A stretch of 64,000 nucleotides of DNA from NCBI GenBank assembly GCA_012064415.1, contig SSNU01001268.1, positions 372,001 to 436,000 on the forward strand, given 5' to 3'. Numbering within the stretch: position 1 is the stretch's first letter; the number at the start of each line of letters is the position of its first letter. Source of the stretch: Gyrodactylus bullatarudis. Taxonomy: Eukaryota > Platyhelminthes > Monogenea > Gyrodactylidea > Gyrodactylidae. The notes under the pieces were generated by a model, which did no database searches, was not told the DNA's origin, and worked only from the letters and a program-made list of their open reading frames with translations. The position numbers and the translations under genes are program-made. Below are positions 4,000 through 26,969 of the stretch, piece by piece.

Positions 4000-6900
4000 T
4001 CACAGCTGATTCTGAGCTTTTCGATAGGCGCCAATGAACTTGTTCATGATTAATTCGTATCGATCAAGGTCAATAATCGGATTGTAAAGAGAGTCTGTTA
4101 ATAATTTGAAAATGCATCTGATCAAGAATTCCATGTTCTTTACAATTAATGGCCACTGGAAAAGAAATTATCAATAAATTGTGAAAATGCTATGCTTTTT
4201 TGGGTAATGCTCCAATTTGGGTACAGCGAAAAATTTCAAGTGCAAGGAATTTTCGCGTCGACTAATGAGAACTCAGAAACCTTTTATCACAATTACTTCA
4301 TTTTTTGTTGAAAAATTATTTTTAGTTGAGATATCTCTATCTGGTTTAAAGTCTTAAAATCAACGAAATTTGAATCTTTTTTATATTCATTTTGATTTCC
4401 TGCCTTAAATAATAATTAATGGTAAAATCTGATTCGATTTTTGAAATCCTTACGAAAAATTTTTGGCTGAAATTCGACTCTTGATACGTCCTATTTGCTG
4501 TGCACTGTATCTAAAATTTTATTGGATGAAAATTTAGAAACAGTCCCTCAAAATAAACTTGAGACTTCGAACAACAATCCTGTATAAAAACTTGTTTAGT
4601 AACCAAAAAAAATTGAAAAATTCGAAATTCAAATTAAGCCCATTTTTACTTAGAAAGTTTAGTGTACCTCAACTGGAGCATACATGATATATGAGGAAAA
4701 TAGACACAGTTTGTATATAACAATTACGTCAATAGACTCGAATAGATTATTTGCACACTCAAAAGGTTTCTGAGTTCTCATTGGTCGACGCGAAAATTCC
4801 TCGCACTTGAAATTTTTTGCTGTACCCAAATTGGAGCATTAGCCTTTTGTTTAATTACATTCGATTCTGAACTGAATAGAGAAATTTAAAATAAACCAAA
4901 ACCTTGATAATAAACGTCATATTTCTCCAGAGAGTCAAGAGCACGAATATTTTGTGGATACCATTATGAATTAAAGTTGTTAAAAGAAGAAAAAACCGAA
5001 AAAATGTAATCTGGAAAAAAATTTGGCCAATTTTTAGAATTTCGAGAATGCCCAAGCTTCCAACTTTTTAGCTCAAAATTTTTGTCGATTATCAAAAAAA
5101 TGCACAAAAATTCGTCATCGTTGTGGGAAATCGAACACGAATGACCCAAAATTTAACTTTTATATTAGAAACGGCGATTTTCTCTCAGCCTCTATGATTC
5201 CAATTTTGATTTTGATCCTTAAAATTATAACTTGATTGCTTTAAATCTTTGAGATCTACAAAAAATTTGAGCTCAAAGCCTGAAAAAGTGGGAAATTCGA
5301 AAAACGGCCTAATTTTGGCCTGATTGAATTTTTACTATTTTCAGCATTTCATGGGTTCATTTCACCATGGAATGACTCAATGGTACTCTCGAATTAAACT
5401 CACTTGATTAATCATACTTGGATCGCTGAGGGGTTTTTGAAATGTACCAAGCATAAAATCGACACATTGTTCAATATTATCCATAAGAGTTGACTGAAGA
5501 GAATAACAGTCCAGGAGACAGACCCAAGAGTAAAAGTTGAGAAAGCTTCTTGAGAAACGATGCGTTGTATTTGCAATAACTGAGGAGGAAAACAAAGATT
5601 AAATTTTATCAAATTCATCATTAGATGCAGAGCTAACCTTTTTCATAAACTCGAATATTTGTATCTGCAAGGAATGGCATATCGTTTATCCAGTTCTCCA
5701 TTTCCTCCGGCCTATTTTCGAAATCTCCAATCCAGCTTTCTGTCTGGAAAATAAAGAATACAATTCAGCTTGATTAATTCCTACCTTTTCTAAAGCTAAT
5801 TGTTACTATAAAACCTCAAGAGTATCAGATTGTCTGGAAAACGAATATTCTCAAAGTTCTATTATGAGTTGTTGGTGGGAAATATTTGTGATAAAAACTC
5901 TGACAAAAATTAGCCGCTTTTAAACTTCGAAAATGTCCGGATTAGATTCGGGTTTTGTCAAAGAGCTTTACTTTTTCTTGAAAAAAACGGCTAGTTCTCT
6001 GAATTTCTATGGCCTAAATCAAACTATTTGTCTAATGTTGCTCCCTTTATATCAGCAATTGATTGCTTCAAATCTGCAAACTAACAGAAATTTTGAGCAC
6101 AAAAAAAAAATTTGGTACATTTTTGAATTCAAAATGATAAAAATGAGAGAGATGAAAATAAATTCAATCTAGTTAATTTGATGTCTGATCGATCACATTG
6201 TTCTTTTTTTCAAAAGCAATCTATTAAGACTGAGAGTTTTAAAATACTTCATCTTGTAATCCAAAGATGGGAAATCGAGTTATTGACAAATGAAAGAAAA
6301 GATGATACAAATTTAATGAGCTTGCATATAAAACTGGACATCATTTCTGAGAAAACATGTCGATTTGGAAGACGCACCACTATATATAAAGATTAGGATA
6401 ATACAAAATTTTCCTGATTTACCTAATTTCCTGGGACTTTCTTCCGACATGTGAAAGAACACTCAATTTTTACTATAAGCCCTATTTTTATGCAAAATTT
6501 TGCAAAAACTGTTCAAAAATCTCAATTTTGTCCTTTCTCGTAGTGAAATTCATTGAAAAAATCTTGGCACGTGTTCAAAAATTGTCATTTTCAATCGAGA
6601 TTTTATACATCAGAACAAACTCGAAAACGTATGGTTTTATAGGAAAAAAGTTTTCGATAATCTTCAGAATGAGATTAAGGATGGAAAAGTTGAAAAATTT
6701 GGCCTACTCTAATGAAGATGATATAATTTTTAATATTGTCAAAGTATCAAGATTTCCTCCAAGAAACTTTCATAGCATTAAGAAATAATCCAAGTTTACA
6801 GCTTTGGTAGACATTTATGCGCGTTTCGTCCTTTTTTGGACTCGTCAGTTTACCACAACATGACACACCAGGTCCAAAAGAGGACGAAACGCGCGTATGT

Positions 6901-9710
6901 CTCTGCCAAAGATATATTCTATATGCTCTGAGAGTTTCTTTTTTACTAGTCACGGTGGGTGAGCTGTAACATTCAGCGACATAGGTCTAATCCATTACCA
7001 AATAAGATGAACCTAGAACGGAATAATTACAATTTATTGAGACTGAGCGAGACAGTAAAATACTTTATCCACTAATATCATTGACAATCTCAAACCATGG
7101 AAGCCTGAAGGGGTCAAAATCACATTCACTCACCAGAATTCTTTGCTCCGATGTATCGATAAGGATTGTAATTTGATGGTTCAAATACTTTTGCCAAATC
7201 GACAACATTTGCTTGTTAACAATGGGGAGGAATTTAATTTTTATCATCTTCTCCACCTGTCTAGCATGGGCCTTTATTCTATTTATACAATTGGCCATTG
7301 AGCTAAAATTATAGGAGCAAATATCGTTGAGAATCTGGGATAATAGTTCAGCAAACTTTTGAGTCTCGCTATAAATCCACTGGCTTATTTCTAGAGGAGA
7401 ATAAATTAATTAACCCGAATATAGATTAAAACTTTTGAGCCTTTGTTTTAACACTGAATTTTTCTATAACTACTCTTGTATTTTTGAACAGTGTGAATGG
7501 AAGAAGGTTAATTTAATGGCTCCCTTCCCTCTTTTAATGTGCATTCATAATTAAACTACAAATAGGAGTGAGTAAATACAGGAAAGCAATTAGATATATT
7601 CAAGCTTAGTCCTTTCAATGTTTTCGTCTACATTTACAAAAGATTAAATCATTTTTGCGATGAAAAACACTGAAAACAACGAGAAAGTATCGATGGAAAA
7701 AAGGTGAAAACTGCAGAATAGAGTAGAGCTCTCTGTGGTGACATGGTGTAGTAAAAAATTTACTTGGTGCTTGATAGAAATAGAAGAGGATTAATTCTTT
7801 CAGATACCCACGCATTTTTTCAGCTATTATGCAATAGAAGATAGTCTTACTGGATGAATTTAAAATGTTTTTCTCCGAGGAAACATTGGCATCTTTTGCA
7901 TGACAGGCCAACTGACTGGTCTTGATGATGTTGTTCCATTCGAGATAGGTTTCAATGAGTCCCCTATTGAAGGCCAAGCTGAGACGATTAATGTAGATGA
8001 ACTGATTGCCTTCCTGGCGTACATTCTTACTCAGGATACGATTCATAAGGCCAGATCGATAGACAAGGAATAATTCATTGGCAAAGTTTCGGCGTCCAAG
8101 AAGGATGAGTTGTCTCACAACGACATAGACCGATTTGGATGACTCTAAAGAGAGAATAAAATCAAATTCAACAACTAAAGAATAATAAATAATTCATTTC
8201 AAGCAAAGGCCAGAAAATGATGTCATTTTTGTTGAGAAAGTTTGAATAAATTTATTTTTTGTACCTAAAACTACGGACAATGTTGCATTGTAAGCAATAA
8301 TGAATAGAAATGATTGAAGAAAAAATCTTACCAATAAGACCCCAGCCTAAAAGTAATCAAAATTTTCATTCAACTCAATTAGTTTCACTTTCGAGTAAGG
8401 TTTCGTGCATAAGAACAATTTACATACCATGTCTATCAGCAGCTTGCATTATTTCCATTTGTAAAACACTGGCAAGGTAACACGACCTGTCATCCATCTT
8501 GCGATTTAGATCGATAAATTTCTCCATCCAGACCTTGTCAGAGGTGTCAAGGCTACCTTGCTTCTCTGATAATAGTTCCTTTAGTTTACTTTTCGCTCTG
8601 AGCAGGATATCGATAGCCTTTTGAAATTCCCTCTCCGCAATGGCGACGTCCAAGTCTTCTGGGATCTCCTTTAGCCAGGAATACTCAAGTTCATACTTTG
8701 ACTGGTTCGTGTCATCTTTACTCTTCTTTTGGATAATTTTTATATTTGCATCAGAATAAATCCCGACAAAATCAGCAACCGAAGGTATCGTAGTGGCAAT
8801 AACATCCTTGATCAAGTCCTCTTTATCCATTGACAGAAAGTTTATTTCGACAACGTTACGCTGGTCATTGGTATAGTTCTGTTTCCGATTCAGGTTAACT
8901 TGAAAAGCCTTATTGAGCGATTCTACAAAGTAGCACTTGGTCAGACCATCCTTAAAGGACAAATGACGTGTTTTTTTAGATGGGTTTATTATTGATACTA
9001 TCAGGTAATTCTCGAAAGCTTTTTCTTCAAAGTGAAACTCATTCAAGTCGTAGATTTCATCCCTGGTCAGATAGGTGTCTTGTCTAAAATCAAAACAAAA
9101 GTACGCTTACTGTTTCTGTCTAGAGGCAATCAGTAAGTGGCCTGTTAATAGATATACTCTGAGCTCTTTCATTTTCATCTGAAAGCTATCATCAAGCTCA
9201 AAGACATCAACTACAGTGGAAAGAGATTCATCTGGGGATATTTCATCGTTCTTGTGGGATGAAATTAGAAATTATAACTCACAGAGAGGCCGTGCACTTC
9301 TTGGAACACCTCAGTGATTTTTATGGGTAATTCATCGCGAACTCTTTGAACTAGAGAATTGAATTAGACTGTAGTTGGATTACTTCTCAAGTGAAATTTG
9401 TCTGTAACCATAGAAATGAGGATTTTTAATTCGCTAATCGAACTGTGAATTTGATGCATATTAATTTCAAGGGAACTAATAGCTTTCCCAGCATCAATAA
9501 ATGTAAGATAGTTGTCATAAATTGATTTTTGAATTTTTTCTGTTATATCATCAGATATATCATTAAGATCATCCATACAACTGTCAATGCCAGCTTCCAT
9601 GCAAAATTCAACAACTAGATAATCAAAAATTGTGATTACTAACAATTCTGCAAGTTGAAATCTGGCCGAGATAATTTAGCGACAAAGTTTTGCTTTTTCT
9701 GCTTATTCAT
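4000..9710 (-). CDS. EXOC8: Exocyst complex component 8 (Exo84), 11 exons
   Basis: Subunit of the exocyst, which tethers secretory vesicles to the plasma membrane before SNARE fusion. Exons: 9644-9710, 9384-9614, 9283-9350, 9111-9250, 8428-9083, 8332-8346, 7917-8144, 7134-7390, 5638-5743, 5404-5579, 4000-4155. They sum to 2100 nt (699 aa); the usual length is about 700-730 aa. The N-terminus has the Vps51/Exo84 coiled-coil signature (NYLTFIDAGKAISSLE). A PH-like region follows around residues 140-260 (VYLLTGHLLIASR), then the Exo84 C-terminal helical domain (WLKEIPEDLDVAIAEREF, VRQLILLGRRNFANELF). All splice phases agree. The first four introns are 33, 32, 29 or 27 nt, and exon 6 is only 15 nt. 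The stop at 7065 lies past the good donor at 7133 and is read as intronic. Some C-terminal joins are less certain than the N-terminal half. Confidence 0.88.
4207..4839. mobile_element. MITE with about 80-bp terminal inverted repeats
   Basis: The left arm beginning ATGCTCCAATTTGGGTACAG is repeated in inverted orientation at the right end, with only a few mismatches over about 80 bp. Both ends are flanked by TA (4205-4206 and 4840-4841), the target duplication of Tc1/mariner-type elements. The 633-bp body has no transposase. It sits inside the EXOC8 intron at 4156-5403. Confidence 0.8.
6800..6912. repeat. Inverted repeat carrying two opposed hammerhead-like halves
   Basis: The left arm CTTTGGTAGACATTTATGCG and onward is the inverted counterpart of a right arm ending at 6910. 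Each arm is about 40 bp and each contains the GTCC-loop-GGACGAAACGCGC segment, facing opposite ways. The plus-strand copy (6871-6901) keeps stem II, GAAA and GUC but has lost the CUGANGA box. Confidence 0.8.
6801..6859 (-). ncRNA. Hammerhead ribozyme-like motif (type I)
   Basis: Read on the minus strand, 6810-6848 gives CUGACGA, a 4-bp stem II (GUCC/GGAC with an A6 loop), GAAA, then a short stem III ending in the cleavage triplet GUC. These are all the conserved core nucleotides of the hammerhead. The string GGACGAAACGCGC matches schistosome- and Penelope-type hammerheads as I know them. Stem III is only about 3 bp, as in retroelement-borne copies. The flanks UGGUA and UACCA could form stem I but leave two unpaired As, which is the weak point. 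It lies in the same transcriptional sense in an EXOC8 intron. Confidence 0.55.
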
Positions 9711-18041: not shown

Positions 18042-21000
18042 TTATGATTTCTTCCCCATCTCTTTTGAGAACACCCTTTCCAATATGATGGCTTCAACTC
18101 TTCTCAAGGGATCCTCCACCATAACGTACAAGATTATTCCAAGTATCATTGAGACCATATAAGAGCCAAAGAAATAATAAACCTAAAAGTTGAGAACCAA
18201 TGAATAACTCACTGTCATGAATAAGGTCATCTTTGGGGGTTCTATTAACTCTTTCAACATTATGACGATTACCATTGGATGTACCAGGTAGATGGAATAT
18301 GACAACTTTGATAGAGTCTTGTAGAATCCGAGATTGAAGAACCATTTGAGGGGATCTAGGTGAGAAATCAGAGTTTTTAGCCAATCAAGATCAAATTATG
18401 AAATTTGAGCTGGTAAAAACCATGAATTCGTACTTATTCCAGGCCAAAACTACTTTGATTAAGCTTTGTAAAATTTCTGTGATTAAATTTCAACCATTTA
18501 TGGTAATCATTTTTAACTACTGATTGTTTTGAGAACGACAGATTTTCTTGAAATTAAAATTTTTCAGATTATCTTCGTCTATCATATCAGAAAGAGCCAA
18601 AAAGATCTCAAGCAGTAAGGCTCTATTCGAAAACATATGGTGAAAATTTAACTGAAATTAGTTTCAAAATTTCGAATTTACAGATTTAAAAAAATGTTTG
18701 TATTTTTTAAGAAATACCTATAGAATTTAGGGTAAATAAAAGCATTTGAAATTAATTTTACAAATCCAGGAAGAAGAAGAAGAAATTTTGGTATAATTTG
18801 GTTATTTATTTTAAAAGAGAATAGCATTTCAAGATTTCATTGGCTGTAAGAACCGCTGGATATGTTGTCTGTATTTGGAGTAGGCCTGATTAAGGGCATT
18901 CTGATTATGAGCATATTCACAGTCATTACTAAGAGCCCTGAGGGAGTAGAGAATATCAAAAAAGTCAATAAGCTGAGATTTCCTCGTGAAGGAGGCCCAA
19001 GAGTGAAAAGTGTCAGCTTCTTCAAGACAGACATCTTTCGTACTGCATTCAAGGCAAAACATTCTCACCACTTTCGGCTCAAAAATATCTTCCACTACGG
19101 TTATATCCTCATCGATTATTTTGAGGAATTTCTTTCTTGAAACTATAATAAAAGAACCGTACTTTCGATATGGACACATCCTATCATGTTGACTATAGTT
19201 TTTGTAATTTTCAACAAGAATAGGTTCTCTTGCAGCTTGCTTTGATAATCCGGTAAAGTGTTCATCCAGTCTCTTTTCATATTGTGGGAAACGTTTCATT
19301 TCTCTGGGAAATAACTTATCCCTCATATCCTTTGGACACAAGTAGAGAAGACAGGCAATAAGGTTCGGTTCATGGACCTCGATTTGAATTCGATTATTTG
19401 GTCTTAAATTCTTCTTGACATGATTCATTAAGACCCGTGTGAATGCAGTCTCTTGAATCTCAAAGTTTTTTATCCAACGCGTATTCAAACCATCATTCAG
19501 GTTCTGCGTGGCCTCAGCGCTAAGACCGATCGTCTTTGTCGGGAAAAAATCTCCATTCACTCTCGGGACTTTGGCATTCTTGAGAATATTATTCTTTATT
19601 TCACTTTCATCAATGATTCCCATCTCCGGAGATATGAAGACATTCTTAAGAATTACCTTGTCCGAATACAGTTTGTCGCCGACGAAAACTGCAATTTTCT
19701 CTGCTGACTCATCGGAATACTTGAAATCATCAAATGCATCACGACTAGTGAACTGAAAGAGTCCTCTAACTTTTCGAACAGCCTCTCGTTCATCATCTGT
19801 CTTTGGTTTGTATTCTGACTTGACATCAGACTTTAACTCAACTCTCGGCTGAATCTCAACCTTGTTAAATATATTTCGATTAAAATTATTTATCCCAAAC
19901 GAGTTACCCACTGTAATACAATCAATCTTATTGATATATGCCTTGTCAGATTTCTCAGATCCAATAGTCCCGGAAAAATGTTTGCCCACTTCCAGTATAT
20001 TCGGCTCAAAGACATCCTCGTAAACTACTGAACTGTTTGAGAGTACCTTGTACTTGAAGCTCTTCTTACTAATCAGAGCATTTACGTTCTCCCGCTCATT
20101 AGCCTCTAAATAGTCGAGATTCCTTTCAATTTTTATCTTGGCATTATGAACCAAAGCCGGGGATCTTGTTATTGAAGATGATCGCTTCGATACTGATGAA
20201 CTCCTCTTGGAGGAGACACTTGATTTCCTCGACTTTTTACCTTCTGACTTGGATTCTCTCTTTGGCACATTTACGAGAGGTTCAAAATCAAATTTGTATC
20301 GAATGTACCTTGATTCCTTCTCTACTATCAGGGAAAAATTGCTCAATCTCTGCTTAAGGGAGAATGTCGTCTGGTATTCCTTTTGGGACTCGAATAGACG
20401 ACTATGATCATCTGACTGAGGCAGCTTCAACTTTATACACATTCTACGATCTTTGACAATGGGATTCTTTTGAAATTCACTCTGGAAAGAGGAATTATGG
20501 ATCTTCTCCCTTAGTACCTCATACAGAGACTTGTAGGGTGAGTCACAACACAGAGTGAACCCACGTATGACAAACTTGTCATTTTCCTTGGTTACATAAT
20601 AAGCCAATATCTTGTACTTGTCATCTTCATTCACCTGGAAAGCAATATCATTCTTACTGTTCTGCGAGGCAATGTAACAAAAGACTGGCTCAATAAAGGT
20701 TTCCTCCTCCTTCTCACCGCTATCCTCCTTCAAAATTGTATAATTCACCTCACGAATTATCACAAAGCCTTTTGTGTAGAAGCAACATCTCTTGTTATTT
20801 TGCACAAAGTAATTGTGTAAAATAAACCCCAAGTCGGGTTCATAATAATTATCACCGGACTCATACTCATCTTGCCTATAAATGGTAAATTGACTACGCT
20901 TAGTTATCGGTCCCCCCAACGCCTGTGAAATTGATTTATCGTCTTCTTTCAAGGAGAAAGTTTCCCTCTTCAATATTGTTGACTTGATATCGATTTTGAT

Positions 21001-23914
21001 TTCGTTACGACAATCGTAAAAAGTATCGTTGAACGGTACAAAAATCTTGTTAATACTTTTAACGTTGAAATCATCATCATAGGACAGACTAAAGATTGGT
21101 ATCAATTCACAATAACCCAGTTCCATGTTGATCATGAATGTCGGCCCCGAACTATTCACCAAGTACGCCTTTTCAGGTACAATGAATTTACTCGGCGTAG
21201 ACTTTGATTCTGCCTGACTGTTACAGTCGTCAATGATGCTGATCTTGTTCTTTTTCATTCCCTCAGCATTGTCGACATTGTCGACAGCTGACTTGACATT
21301 ATTGACCACCTCCTTGCTACTTAGAAGGCATTTTCCTTTTTCTTCGTTTAAGTTGGCATTTTTGACAGATGCTCTACGCTTTGATTTGCCAGCCGGCTGG
21401 GGTATATTCCTCAGCGAGTTGATCGAAGAGATTGTCGACACTAGGGAGAGTAGAACCTGTTTTATGCAAAACTCTATCCGGGGTAATTGTTCAACCTTTT
21501 CTGGGTCGAAACGATACTTGGCACGCTCCTTGCATAGACTGTGTATTGCCTCGCCGTATAATCCATAAATTTCTCTTATACAGGCATAATCGAACGTGTT
21601 ATTTTCACTGGGTTCCATTTTGGAGAGGATGTTCTCAAAGATTTTCGTCATGCCAAAATTTATCTCCACCTCATTCTCCGGGTTCTCGTTCTCTTGGCCT
21701 AGATCATTTTGTTTCTCTAGGTTACTCATTTTGATACTTTTTGATTAAAAGGAAAAAAAAATTAAATTTTCTCAGATTTCACTGAATTTTTTTAGAAATT
21801 TATTCGCAATAAACATTCTAATACGAATCAATTATGGTTGAGGAGCAAAAGTACAATCTATCGGGAAAGGAAATAATCTTTGCTTACCTAGATAGGTTGT
21901 TGCCACAAGATATGAAATTATCGAGAGACCAATACACCAGGTCACATGAAAGACTGAATTATATAGAGCAGCGACGTTTAAATTGACTGAATACTGCAGG
22001 CTAGTGATGCCGAATGTTCCAAAGAGTGTAGCAAACATAATTATTCCAGCAAGAGGGAAGAGGCCGAACCAAGAGATGAGCATTTTCCGAATGCTGAAAT
22101 TCTAAATGAAAATAGAAGTGTGAGTTTTTTGTCAAGTTAATATACTTATTTACTTTAAAGTAATCACATGATTTCTAAAAATAATACCTTGAACAGTTTG
22201 GGACGCGTGACAATCATTTGAGCAGTTATTAGGCCTAGTGTGAATGCTCCCATCCTGGTATACGGCTTCACGTATACAACATCGAAATAGTCTTGCCTGT
22301 AAAGCTATTAGTCAATGAAAATTACTGTGTCATTGCATAGACTCCGATAGGATACTGAGACTTGATCGACAAGTAAAATGCTGCGCCGATTGATGTTAAA
22401 GTCAGGAGGCTTGCGTAGAGGAGAGAAGCCCATCTTCGCCATCTATAGAGCATTATGAAAATTGGAGCTAGGATTAGGTTGAATTGGATATCATTCGAAA
22501 TGTACCAATACCACGGGAAACACTGTAAAGTAAATTTCCTTGACATTAGGATGTTTTGTAAAATCTATTCAAAAATCTTACCATCTTCTCTGATCCGATG
22601 AGATTATTCAAAAATATGCTGAACCAATACTTGTTGCAAACGCCAATGTTCATAATCTTCTCCGAATGCAGTGCACGCCTTGAGATGAACGGAACAAATC
22701 CATGATATAGAATTACCATTAGGACAGCTGTCGGTCCCAATCGCAACATCCTGTGTATGGAATAGGCTAGCCAAAATTGAATTCCGTTTACGAAACTTTT
22801 AACCCTATCGAATTTCGGCATTGTTATGTAGAATGTAAGGAGGCCCGAAATGTAGAAAAGACTATCAACAGATACAAATCCGTTCATTAGGAAACTGAAG
22901 GAGAAATTCTTATAGACAGACAAATAGAACGGCAGAGAATTATCTGAAAAAACCATTAAAAATGTAATTGTCACTTATTTCCGATAGTGAAAAGACAATA
23001 ACATGGGAGTAAACAACCCAAGCAAGGTTAATTACACGTAGAGCGTCAAGAAATCCAAGGGGATGACCTGACAAGGTCTTTTCCCCTGTTTTCTCATCGA
23101 CAATTTCAATTTTCATATCCGGACAATTAATAAGGGAGTGATAGTTTTGTGGAAATGAAAACGATAAGCAAATTTTTGACCAGACGCTAACATCCCTACT
23201 GTGTTTGTAGGTTTTAAAGGCTTTCGCGAGGTCAGCCTTCTCGCCTTCGTAGGTCTCAGTGAACTTGTAGATTAGGTATGCATCATAGATGGAGGCTGTT
23301 GTCACAATAACGCCAATAAATGCAACAATTGATCTAAAATATTGAATAAAAGATTTCCACGTAACTTACACAGATAGATAAAACCAAACGTTTTGTCTAT
23401 CAGATGGTTGACTCTCATGACAGAAAGAGGTCTCATTACTCAGGACCATGGGAAATGAAACCCGTTGGAAGAGAGAATTGAAAATGTCAACAACTTCTTG
23501 GACGGGACATTCCTCTGGAATGCAGACTCCGATTTCAGCCTCGAACATGGACACTATGGAGATATTTGCCATGACCAAATTCCCATGAAGGTCGCAATAC
23601 TTGGCTGGATACTTTGACTTAAATTCCGGGAGGTTAATATTCTCACAGAGATCCCAGGCACCGGGATATTTGATAGTAGGCCCTGCAATACCTGAGGGAA
23701 TCTTGAACCAAGCATCTAGGAAGGCCTCTGACCAATATTCTGACTTTCCAGTCTGGAGAATATCCAAAACAGCTAGCCCACAAGATGTGTTACTGGGCAG
23801 TTGAGTTACCCTACTAAAATCAAGTTTATTCGGCAACATTGGCCTTTCATGTCCAGTTAATAGGTAAACCGTAAAACAGAGTAATATCTTTAGACTTGTC
23901 ATATAATGGATCAT
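18042..23914 (-). CDS. NRF-6-like membrane acyltransferase, 8 exons
   Basis: A member of the nose-resistant-to-fluoxetine family: an NRF extracellular domain followed by an acyltransferase-3 multi-pass membrane domain. These proteins are thought to act in lipid transport or modification. Exons: 23370-23914, 22975-23333, 22582-22943, 22326-22522, 22188-22296, 21888-22101, 18213-18355, 18042-18182. They sum to 2070 nt (689 aa), normal for the family. The N-terminus has a signal peptide, then a Cys-rich NRF domain (CGLAVLDILQTGKSEYW, VCIPEECPVQ). The membrane domain shows MNGFVSVDSLFYISGLL, HRMLRLGP, CFPWYWYISNDIQF, KPYTRMGAF and, near the end, LSYSIYLVHP. The last two exons lie beyond a 3532-nt intron that contains another gene; the phase-1 junction restores the frame. 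I see no break. Confidence 0.88.
18829..21729 (-). CDS. Intronless 966-aa orphan gene nested in an NRF-6-like intron
   Basis: A single uninterrupted frame, by far the longest in the window, from ATG at 21729. I recognise no domain. The N-terminal 110 residues look helical (FDYACIREIYGLYGEAIHSL). A basic Ser/Lys linker follows, then a beta-rich middle, a second Ser/Arg/Lys-rich linker near residue 510 (SVSSKRSSSVSKRSSS), and a Cys-containing C-terminal part. A motif of the type V-(Y/V)-E-D-(V/I)-F-E-P occurs near residue 570 (YEDVFEPNI) and near residue 880 (VEDIFEPKV), with a looser relative (EETFIEPVF) near residue 345, suggesting a repeated module. Lack of introns inside an intron-rich host gene could mean retroposition, a captured gene or a fast-evolving lineage gene. 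It is probably expressed, since nearly 3 kb stays open. Confidence 0.75.
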   Translation of the reverse strand: MSNLEKQNDLGQENENPENEVEINFGMTKIFENILSKMEPSENNTFDYACIREIYGLYGEAIHSLCKERAKYRFDPEKVEQLPRIEFCIKQVLLSLVSTISSINSLRNIPQPAGKSKRRASVKNANLNEEKGKCLLSSKEVVNNVKSAVDNVDNAEGMKKNKISIIDDCNSQAESKSTPSKFIVPEKAYLVNSSGPTFMINMELGYCELIPIFSLSYDDDFNVKSINKIFVPFNDTFYDCRNEIKIDIKSTILKRETFSLKEDDKSISQALGGPITKRSQFTIYRQDEYESGDNYYEPDLGFILHNYFVQNNKRCCFYTKGFVIIREVNYTILKEDSGEKEEETFIEPVFCYIASQNSKNDIAFQVNEDDKYKILAYYVTKENDKFVIRGFTLCCDSPYKSLYEVLREKIHNSSFQSEFQKNPIVKDRRMCIKLKLPQSDDHSRLFESQKEYQTTFSLKQRLSNFSLIVEKESRYIRYKFDFEPLVNVPKRESKSEGKKSRKSSVSSKRSSSVSKRSSSITRSPALVHNAKIKIERNLDYLEANERENVNALISKKSFKYKVLSNSSVVYEDVFEPNILEVGKHFSGTIGSEKSDKAYINKIDCITVGNSFGINNFNRNIFNKVEIQPRVELKSDVKSEYKPKTDDEREAVRKVRGLFQFTSRDAFDDFKYSDESAEKIAVFVGDKLYSDKVILKNVFISPEMGIIDESEIKNNILKNAKVPRVNGDFFPTKTIGLSAEATQNLNDGLNTRWIKNFEIQETAFTRVLMNHVKKNLRPNNRIQIEVHEPNLIACLLYLCPKDMRDKLFPREMKRFPQYEKRLDEHFTGLSKQAAREPILVENYKNYSQHDRMCPYRKYGSFIIVSRKKFLKIIDEDITVVEDIFEPKVVRMFCLECSTKDVCLEEADTFHSWASFTRKSQLIDFFDILYSLRALSNDCEYAHNQNALNQAYSKYRQHIQRFLQPMKS

Positions 23915-25035: not shown

Positions 25036-26969
25036 ATGTTTAATATAAACTGCGTCCTGAAAAATGAGCCGAAACCTTTTGACCAATTAATTGGAAATCT
25101 ACCGCCAAACATTATATTTCCACATCTCTGGCCAATTGAGGAAGAACATCAAAAGGCTAAAACGAGTAGCAGAACAGACGAGAATGACATCTCAGATGAC
25201 AGCTATCATAAACTCACAGCCACGAGCATGGCTGAAAATAACAACTGTGCCGTTTGTGGCGATCGCAGTAGTGGCAAGCATTACGGTCAATTTACCTGCG
25301 AGGGTTGCAAGAGTTTCTTCAAACGGTCTGTGCGAAAAAATTTATCGTATTCCTGTAAAAAGAAGAAGACCTGTGTAATCACCATGAACAATCGGAATCA
25401 TTGCCAATTTTGTCGATTTCAAAAATGTCTTTTCTTTGGCATGAAAAAGGAAGGTTTGTTACTTTCTAATTCATTAACTCTTTCGTTTGAAATGAGACCT
25501 TTTTTTGTGTTACAGCTGTACAACAAGGTCGCAACGACATTGTTTTCAGTAGCAACTTTGACTTTTCCCAATCAACTCTGCCAAAGTTGAACAAATCCAC
25601 AACTGAACGGGACCCGTTAAACTTGGATGAAATCAAGAACATGTACTCAACCATTCTAAACATGATCCTTAGAGCTGAACCAACCCTTAGTAGGATATCA
25701 TCAAAGATGAACAACTTTCTTAAGAATCGCTATGCATGGTTTTCCAAGTTGAACATCTCGCCAGAATGTCCCCTCAAGATTCTATTCAATGTCGTCAACT
25801 GGACTAGGAATATGCCCTTCTTTCCTGAACTCAAAGTGAGTCATAGTCACTAGACTTGGAGGAAATTTACTAAAATCCTCCGTCGATATGAAAGATTTAA
25901 TTATTAAAGTATTTTTAATTTCGCTTCAAAAAATCTTTTTATGCTTCTGGATTAAGAAAAACCAAATTGTCAAAATTTAATGTTTTATCTTTATAATTTT
26001 AACTTGAATTCACATTATTTCTTACAAAAAACGTTGCAAAAGTCCTATCTAAATTTTTTTTCAATAGTTAAAAACGAAATTTCTCCTATTTTTATGAATA
26101 TTACTAACTTGATCAGTCAAAAAAAACGTTTTTAATTCAAAAATTTATTATTCCAGAAGTATAAAAAGGTATTTTGAAGCGAAATTTGGTGAGATTATAT
26201 TTAAACACTTGAAGATTAAATCGATGGGCGATTTTAGTAATTTTGGAAATTTTGTCCAGGTCTACTAGTAATATCCACTAACTCGATTTTTCAGCTAAAA
26301 GATCAAGTTCGTTTATTGCAACACAACTGGATGAGGTTATTCTTCATTTCCCTAGTGACAGCCAACACAGAGGGACGATTGAATCACTTTTTGAATCAAA
26401 TGAAACATTCAACCGCCATAGCAGCGGAGAGTTTGTCTCACCAAGAGATCTTTTGGAGGACATTCAACCAGATTGAGTCGATGCGACTATCAACAGTTGA
26501 CCTTGGCCTGTTGAAAGCCATCAACTTGTTCAACCCGAGTAAGTATTCTAGTTGAGAAATGTCTCACTCTGTCTTGTACTCTTTTATTTTTATTATACCA
26601 GCTACACCAGATATCGAAGGAGCAGAAGAGGTTGATAACGTCCGCCTGAATTTAATCAAGGCCTGGGAAATGAAGAGGCTGTCCATGGATGAATCTGAAG
26701 AAATTTCCATTTCCTCAATCATACTCAAGGCCTCCTGTATTGATGACCTGTCAGCTGAAATGGTCGAGATGATCTTCTTCCGTGTGGATCTCGGTAACGT
26801 GGAGATAATTGAAATGCTCAAAGATATCCTGTTGTATGGGCCGCCGCCAAATCAAATTTCAGCCAATGACTCGTGTGGCCTATATGAGATGCGGCAAATT
26901 CCAAAATCACGAAAACCCTCGTCATCCCTAGACAATGACCAGTTACCAATGAAAAAAATCAAAATGTGA
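25036..26969 (+). CDS. COUP-TF-like nuclear receptor (NR2 group), 4 exons
   Basis: A ligand-class transcription factor acting in the nucleus. Exons 25036-25453, 25516-25835, 26295-26538 and 26602-26969 sum to 1350 nt (449 aa). Residues about 70-135 form the two-zinc-finger DNA-binding domain: [20 protein letters not shown] with P-box CEGCKS, then [14 protein letters not shown] and [19 protein letters not shown]. The [16 protein letters not shown] string is characteristic of COUP-TF/NR2F (seven-up). The ligand-binding domain is much more divergent: [20 protein letters not shown] corresponds to the helix 3-5 signature and [19 protein letters not shown] to helices 10-11. After this a loose Ser/Lys tail replaces a recognisable AF-2 helix. 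Exact orthology (NR2F versus a lineage-specific NR2) is unresolved. Confidence 0.85.

Follow-up and report, generated by a model that had tools for sequence, protein, structure and literature searches.

A decayed hammerhead-bearing SINE-like repeat in an EXOC8 intron of Gyrodactylus bullatarudis and the probable mobilisation of its family by Penelope-like elements

Sm-alpha of Schistosoma mansoni is, by description, the nearest known system in which a relationship to tRNA is combined with a hammerhead ribozyme. It is related to tRNA-Gln-TTG, and the related W element measures 335 bp (PMC2770079, PMC8490949). Metazoan retrozymes form a second group of hammerhead-bearing retroelements. As a review summarises them, they seem to be promoter-less and to carry no conserved motif that would tell which retrotransposon helps them (PMC7761336); Penelope-like elements (PLEs) have been proposed as that helper from shared features and co-occurrence (PMC7229834).

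Penelope elements of Adineta vaga are described as carrying head-to-head inverted pLTRs, an optional 31-bp tail on one of these and target-site duplications (TSDs) of 8-10 bp. For the head-to-head copies, self-priming on an antisense template has been proposed; the same source describes a host gene moved in trans and states that cross-mobilisation between Penelope families was not found (PMC3846280). The purified Penelope protein of an anole (PAc) is reported to cleave and extend both strands, starting at two RNA-internal sites that bound the tail. In vitro the start site is alike on the top and bottom strands, and the activity is independent of hammerhead cleavage (PMC11167929).

The window analysed here is a stretch of 64,000 nucleotides from the monogenean Gyrodactylus bullatarudis (contig SSNU01001268.1, positions 372,001 to 436,000 of the forward strand), in which an initial annotation had placed a hammerhead-like motif within an intron of EXOC8. 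With a probability of roughly 0.78, this motif is read as part of a hammerhead-bearing SINE-like repeat that has decayed in the intron and whose family would have been mobilised in trans by a Penelope-like protein. The gene model consists of the following features:

9046-8428, 8144-7851, 7390-7134, 5743-5638 and 5579-5404, minus strand: the five EXOC8 exons, predicted from splice signals
7134..7390, minus strand: EXOC8 exon upstream of the element-bearing intron, within the Pfam-matched exons
5744..7133, minus strand: predicted EXOC8 intron with the element (donor CTG/GTGAGT, acceptor TTCCAG/ACAG, open frame)
5638..5743, minus strand: predicted EXOC8 exon downstream of the element-bearing intron, open in frame and beyond the Pfam domain

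Joined in silico, the five exons form one open frame that matches Pfam Exo84_C (E 1.3e-17, profile positions 2-198 of 205). The match is confined to the first three exons and ends in the third, and the last two are supported by splice signals and frame. The intron 7133-5744 is predicted to be part of EXOC8 from its splice signals and the open frame across it. With the Exo84_C match on the joined exons, the intronic position of the motif on the EXOC8-sense (minus) strand is borne out as a prediction. A search of solved structures with the EXOC8 pieces gave no useful match. Elsewhere in the window, an ORF at 25036-25590 resembles, by eye, a nuclear receptor DNA-binding domain, and a homologue search with the ORF 18829-21729 gave nothing at E<=0.001 among 5514 candidates.

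The core letters of the hammerhead are present where they had been reported, the minus strand of 6801-6860 reading CTGACGA-GTCC-AAAAAA-GGAC-GAAA-CGCGCATA-AATGTC. Its parts are:

6807..6853, minus strand: degenerate type I hammerhead (Rfam RF00163, 25.9 bits, gathering score 34; family comparison)
6848-6842, 6841-6828 and 6827-6824, minus strand: CTGACGA, stem II (GTCC/GGAC) and GAAA of the degenerate hammerhead
6823-6816, minus strand: would-be stem III and triplet, CGCGCATA in the window and CGCGCGTA in the family

The initial annotation had held that a covariance-model score below threshold would refute it, and the score obtained with the Rfam type I model lies below the gathering score; no family in the Rfam scan of the window attains its own. 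The assignment to type I with a short stem III stands. The GUC at 6812-6810, previously taken as the cleavage triplet, was rejected in that role by covariance-model alignment and family comparison: in the family these letters form the distal end of stem I, and the triplet is GUA. At the position of that GUA the aligned window copy reads ATA (6818-6816). Alignment with the family further reveals that the second pair of stem III is broken (C.A, the family G having become A), as are the two core-proximal pairs of stem I (A.A and A.A). When the stretch 6801-6860 is folded alone, it behaves like its shuffles (z -0.71; 57 of 200 shuffles as good).

The loose core pattern has 13 matches at 9 places in the whole window, against 3.65 expected, and none of 100 shuffles reaches 13. 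The motif letters are thus commoner than chance throughout the window and by themselves single out nothing. The idea that the consensus letters arose by chance, to which the 9 places lend some colour, is practically negligible: it is refuted by about 100 nt of homology in each arm of the window feature to a family whose exact pattern (core, stem II and GAAACGCG) has 213 genome matches, against 0 for a reversed control. It is because of this homology to genome-wide copies that the window motif is significant.

The repeat in question, family 1, was characterised in the window's own genome (77.3 Mb in 471 contigs). RF00163 has 57 matches there at E<=1e-3, 29 of them over the gathering score of 34 and the best at 45.2 bits; the window copy is absent from these 57, and 50 of the 57 places fall within the loci analysed. 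Among 70 of the 213 exact-pattern matches listed, the hammerhead loop is TAATAA in 44, a family-1 loop in 22, TAAAAA in 2 and another sequence in 2 (by eye). When used as a DNA query, a family-1 copy has at least 73 matches (40 scored of 1022 first-look candidates). A search of this genome for exact telomere arrays of TTAGG and TTAGGC, 24-25 nt long, gave 0 matches each.

The family-1 unit comprises 379 nt in a circular register, as derived from 139 alignments of 80 nt or more. Box A lies at u63, box B at u107 and CTGACGA at u132, with 25 nt from the box B start to that of CUGANGA, and the tail extends to u379. Intact copies are aligned by the covariance model as GAAACGCGCGU-A, and cleavage is predicted after u164 (GUA). 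The longest ATG frame in the doubled unit is 43 aa, the unit GC content is 41%, and the repeat contains no ORF for a reverse transcriptase (RT) or a GIY-YIG endonuclease. Boxes A and B together show 1 mismatch over both 11-nt boxes, a fit equalled by 0 of 1000 shuffles. Rfam tRNA models gave no match at E<=0.1 in 20 loci and ARAGORN none in 12 loci, and the tRNA likeness of the head therefore rests on the two boxes. The unit is free of TTTT, and termination of a pol III transcript within it would not be expected. An A-run of 6 or more follows 1 of 90 tail-site ends, which indicates that the repeat has no poly-A tail.

Copies of family 1 are short and dispersed. Pieces exceed one unit in 9 of 78 loci, the longest having 481 nt or 1.27 units, and no tandem dimers to multimers occur in these 78 loci. 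The cleavage site is spanned by 89 of 136 pieces, and 2 of the 136 start no more than 4 nt away. With pieces thus extending through the site, the copies mostly do not derive from linear RNAs ended by cleavage. The templates would have been uncut RNA or re-closed circles, and the maximum of 1.27 units is equally compatible with circles and with a source locus that has partial direct repeats. As for other piece starts, 6 of the 136 pieces begin at unit positions 296-300 (L009, L024, L050, L059, L060 and L073), and larger clusters of 5' ends lie at unit 63-68, 95-99, 118-122 and 128-132.

In the window, the feature is larger than the initial annotation had drawn it. Instead of a solo hammerhead, it is an inverted pair of fragments of this dispersed repeat, of which arm 1 lies in the sense of EXOC8 according to the gene model:

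6761..6862, minus strand: arm 1, a family-1 fragment (unit 118-219) that holds the degenerate hammerhead (blastn to the unit 85%; alignment)
6872..7014, plus strand: arm 2, the same repeat inverted (unit 139-301; blastn 76%; inverted repeat I1)
7011..7030, plus strand: probable continuation of arm 2 on the far side of a 24-nt deletion, reaching close to tail site A (unit ~323-342; MAFFT)
6872..6896, plus strand: hammerhead remnant in arm 2 (RF00163 partial, 24.3 bits, model 14-38; alignment)
6797..6841, no strand assigned: left arm of a 45-nt inverted repeat, partner 6872-6916, 82% complementary, 30-nt spacer

The remnant in arm 2 retains stem II, GAAA, a stem III of CGCGCG and GUA, and its CUGANGA is gone (alignment). 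Pairing between the two arms gives a strong hairpin at 6795-6920, with -56.1 kcal/mol for the minus transcript (z -8.41; shuffles -27.4) and -64.7 kcal/mol for the plus transcript (z -12.71; shuffles -23.8). The breaks in stem III and the proximal stem I, together with this arm-to-arm pairing, lead to the prediction that the window copy is inactive, with no self-cleavage expected. As judged from these alignments, what lies in the EXOC8 intron is the old and inactive remains of a dispersed noncoding retroelement, inserted as a head-to-head inverted pair. The tie to a retroelement that had been suggested earlier is upheld by its origin in a dispersed repeat, and the suggested link to Penelope proves apt.

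Two alternatives bear on this hairpin and its ribozyme letters. Domestication, also raised by the initial annotation, would make the motif an intronic ribozyme acting to cut the EXOC8 pre-mRNA; such a role would agree with the strand and with the presence of the core letters. Nothing suggests it, and it is very unlikely in view of a score under the Rfam cut-off, breaks in stem III and the proximal stem I when compared with the family, an inverted partner that pairs with the motif and has lost its CUGANGA, and arms whose identity to the family unit is 85% and 76%. A microRNA-like hairpin would account for the match to Rfam MIR5284 (29.5 bits, E 5.6e-4, over 6802-6911), a model with a gathering score of 93; the hairpin is explained by the inverted repeat, and this alternative is extremely unlikely. 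MIR5284, snoZ247 and the other Rfam matches in the window were rejected, each lying below its own cut-off. The window copy is an ordinary fossil of the repeat, with no sign of function in EXOC8.

Head-to-head pairing in family 1 extends beyond the window copy. The locus tables cover 78 loci and omit L081, L082 and L086, which duplicate L007, the window and L018, as well as L035, L037, L038 and L087 (second family) and L088 (a Penelope locus with a fragment); end counts use the 129 pieces in the main cluster of each locus, and counts of cleavage sites, lengths and A-runs use all 136 pieces. Within 110-bp clusters, head-to-head pairs occur in 44 of 78 loci and tail-to-tail pairs in 0 of 78, the remaining 34 of 78 being single by the cluster measure. 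In at least one of the latter, L060, the flank contains a short inverted piece, which makes the 44 pairs a lower count.

The tails of these pieces end preferentially at two sites about 31 nt apart. Site A (u340-357) accounts for the ends of 43 of 129 pieces and site B (u374-6) for 42, the other 44 lying at neither; the bins occupy 4.7% and 3.2% of the unit, respectively. The two arms of a pair mostly use different sites: with strict bins, 21 of 44 pairs can be classified, 19 as A/B and 2 as alike (binomial p 2e-4), and wider bins give 25 A/B against 5 alike in 30 pairs (p 3e-4). Single loci divide into 12 A, 11 B and 11 neither, and base rates therefore do not explain the pairing rule. The window pair itself was scored as "neither" in these classes and lies outside the TSD test. 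In that test, carried out on the 30 pairs of the wider bins against flanks reshuffled between loci, TSDs of at least 8 bp were found in 9 pairs (control mean 0.19) and of at least 6 bp in 16 (control 2.93). The flanks are AT-rich, with 78-79% AT in the nearest 10 nt versus 71-75% at 31-40 nt.

The arms of a pair are slightly more similar to each other (mean 0.919) than to other copies (0.902). In 33 testable pairs of the 44, the partner arm is the best match in 5, with a mean fractional rank of 0.33, and derived sites are common to both arms at 10 of 10 positions in L063 and 7 of 7 in L078. The inner ends are variable and independent of each other. A foldback DNA transposon or MITE, with the arms as terminal repeats, would be in keeping with the 45-nt arms in the window and with the TSDs at some loci; the variable and independent inner ends, the 34 of 78 unpaired loci and the 9 of 78 loci with a piece longer than one unit render this explanation highly improbable.

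An ordinary tRNA-derived SINE that is mobilised by a LINE, with inverted pairs formed via twin priming, would likewise have a box A/B head, variable 5' truncation and short TSDs, all of which are SINE-like features of the repeat. Twin priming inverts an internal 5' segment and yields no second copy of the 3' end. In family 1, by contrast, a 3' tail forms the outer end on both sides; two fixed sites are used, for the most part once each within a pair, and a poly-A tail is lacking (A-run behind 1 of 90 ends). On these end features, LINE mobilisation is regarded as unlikely.

A second family with the same layout comprises L035, L037, L038 and L087, and a copy of it used as query has at least 70 matches (40 scored of 787 candidates). 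In L037 the distance from box A to box B equals that of family 1 (44 nt), and a hammerhead is likewise present in family 2. The sole blastn match between the families is 31 nt at the ribozyme; the layout is therefore common to both, and the sequence of head and body is not. In L037 the boxes fit as well as in the family-1 unit (1 mismatch in the two 11-nt boxes together, a fit that 0 of 1000 shuffles attain), and the weaker boxes of this family are equalled by 38 (L087), 39 (L035), 106 (L038) and 436 (L035 minus copy) per 1000. Among the 70 matches listed, one near-full direct pair was found (C330). Also among those 70, 20 head-to-head junctions and some direct partial repeats were noted by eye, the contigs concerned including G000 C110, C208, C287, C455, C330 and C354.

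Between the families, the ribozyme itself shows changes that appear compensatory. In family 1 stem I reads GGCAUA/UAUGUC; in family 2 it reads GGUGUA/UACAUC, with pairs 3 and 4 changed from A-U and C-G to G-C and U-A (55 versus 4 copies picked by the core pattern, a single comparison). Stem II is fully paired in 49 of 55 and 3 of 4 copies, respectively, and shows no covariation. The apparent covariation in stem I supports the positions assigned to GUA and GUC in the family and suggests selection on a working ribozyme in the source copies.

Penelope elements reside in the same genome. GIY-YIG searches gave 19 matches, not all of them Penelope, and L091 contains an ORF with both RVT_1 and GIY-YIG. 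A 901-nt 3' piece of one Penelope copy has at least 50 matches (40 scored of 871 candidates). Among the 50 listed, 18 of the 3' ends lie at 715-732, 20 at 756-784 and 12 elsewhere (by eye). At least seven head-to-head Penelope pairs reach both 3' ends, with arms up to 3.8 kb apart (by eye); of the seven listed, six have one end of each kind, and the seventh ends at 741 and 784. In the L018 region (L086:765-2266), a Penelope pair lies inside a copy of the hammerhead repeat and has a target duplication of ~10 bp with one mismatch, the right arm of the pair carrying the tail and the left arm being without it. So the Penelope elements and the repeat appear, from their ends and pairing, to insert in the same manner in this genome.

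Direct sequence sharing was sought between the tail of the repeat and 10 GIY-YIG loci, not all of which are Penelope or reach the 3' end; no similarity was detected besides inserted copies of the repeat. In an Rfam scan of six GIY-YIG loci, the sole hammerhead match was an inserted copy of the repeat. Separately, Penelope 3' ends (L091:2120-2220; L084, L085, L086, L088 and L089) carry the stretch GGCATGTATCACACTGATGAGTATGCCCGAAATAAAGG, which is 91% identical over 78 nt between L086 and L091 and thus more conserved than the wider alignment of those loci, at about 66%. With CUGAUGA and GAAA, this stretch may represent a minimal hammerhead, to which Rfam gives no score.

The proposed mechanism begins with transcription of the repeat by pol III from its own boxes A and B, and intact copies would undergo hammerhead cleavage at GUA. 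A Penelope-like protein supplied in trans would nick both strands of an AT-rich target and reverse-transcribe the repeat RNA, one nick priming synthesis at tail site B and the other at tail site A, on templates that would mostly not be ended by hammerhead cleavage. The two first strands would then meet and be joined 5' to 5', giving a head-to-head pair with short target duplications. The nicking, priming and joining steps are drawn from the end statistics and the published biochemistry of one Penelope protein. Penelope mobilisation is favoured because the two end sites, the paired arms and the TSDs match the published Penelope signature and because Penelope elements are co-resident; the family is thus probably a SINE-like element with a hammerhead, mobilised in trans by these elements. 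Several observations weigh against this reading: no tail similarity in the 10 GIY-YIG loci, TSDs of at least 6 bp in no more than 16 of 30 pairs, a partner arm that is the best match in just 5 of 33 tests, 34 of 78 loci without a pair, 44 of 129 ends at neither site, and a tRNA likeness based on the boxes. The A. vaga work, with no cross-mobilisation found and antisense self-priming proposed, points the same way, although it also describes the host gene moved in trans (PMC3846280). The PAc start site is alike on both strands, and the rule of one site per arm therefore goes beyond that in vitro result.

A wider proposal, given slightly better than even odds, is that such repeats constitute a class of SINEs mobilised by Penelope-like elements and not by LINEs, characterised by a pol III layout with a hammerhead, two unrelated bodies, two-site priming on both strands and ribozyme cleavage outside the template step. 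If true, it would identify the promoter as well as the helper of animal hammerhead retroelements, neither of which, according to the 2020 review, could be deduced (PMC7761336). The end statistics, with two initiation sites and mostly one per arm, provide a sequence-level test of the proposal that PLEs act as helpers. They may also record, in a genome, the both-strand priming reported in vitro for one Penelope protein (PMC11167929). No report of the two-site paired signature in a hammerhead SINE was found in the open-access literature searched.

Among known systems, the ribozyme is compared with Rfam Hammerhead_1 (RF00163): its core positions are kept in intact copies of the repeat, which score up to 45.2 bits, versus 25.9 for the window copy. 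Schistosome Sm-alpha and Sj-alpha are likewise dispersed and SINE-like and carry a type I hammerhead; their relationship to tRNA has its counterpart in the box A/B head of the repeat. They are likened to the repeat by description, and the published descriptions do not include a two-site tail or head-to-head pairing (PMC2770079, PMC8490949).

Metazoan non-LTR retrozymes (Cervera and de la Pena 2020) share with the repeat the type I hammerhead, and the repeat unit falls within their 170-400 nt (PMC7229834). Its GC content of 41% compares with a published value of <45% for retrozymes, and Penelope is suspected as helper in both cases (PMC7229834, PMC7761336). Retrozymes are described as tandem dimers to multimers (PMC7229834, PMC7761336), whereas the repeat is dispersed, with at most 1.27 units in 78 loci; it also has boxes A and B and a helper-like end signature, and retrozymes are described without either (PMC7761336).

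Penelope-like elements with GIY-YIG have in common with the repeat head-to-head copies, partial direct repeats, an optional ~31-bp tail and short TSDs (PMC3846280, PMC11167929). Unlike these elements, the repeat lacks an RT/endonuclease ORF, and the enzyme would act in trans. With its 4-bp stem II and good RF00163 scores, its hammerhead is unlike the minimal Penelope variants that have been described (PMC7761336). By comparison with all of these, the family appears to be a variant among SINE-like elements with a hammerhead, and its insertion ends argue for mobilisation by Penelope.
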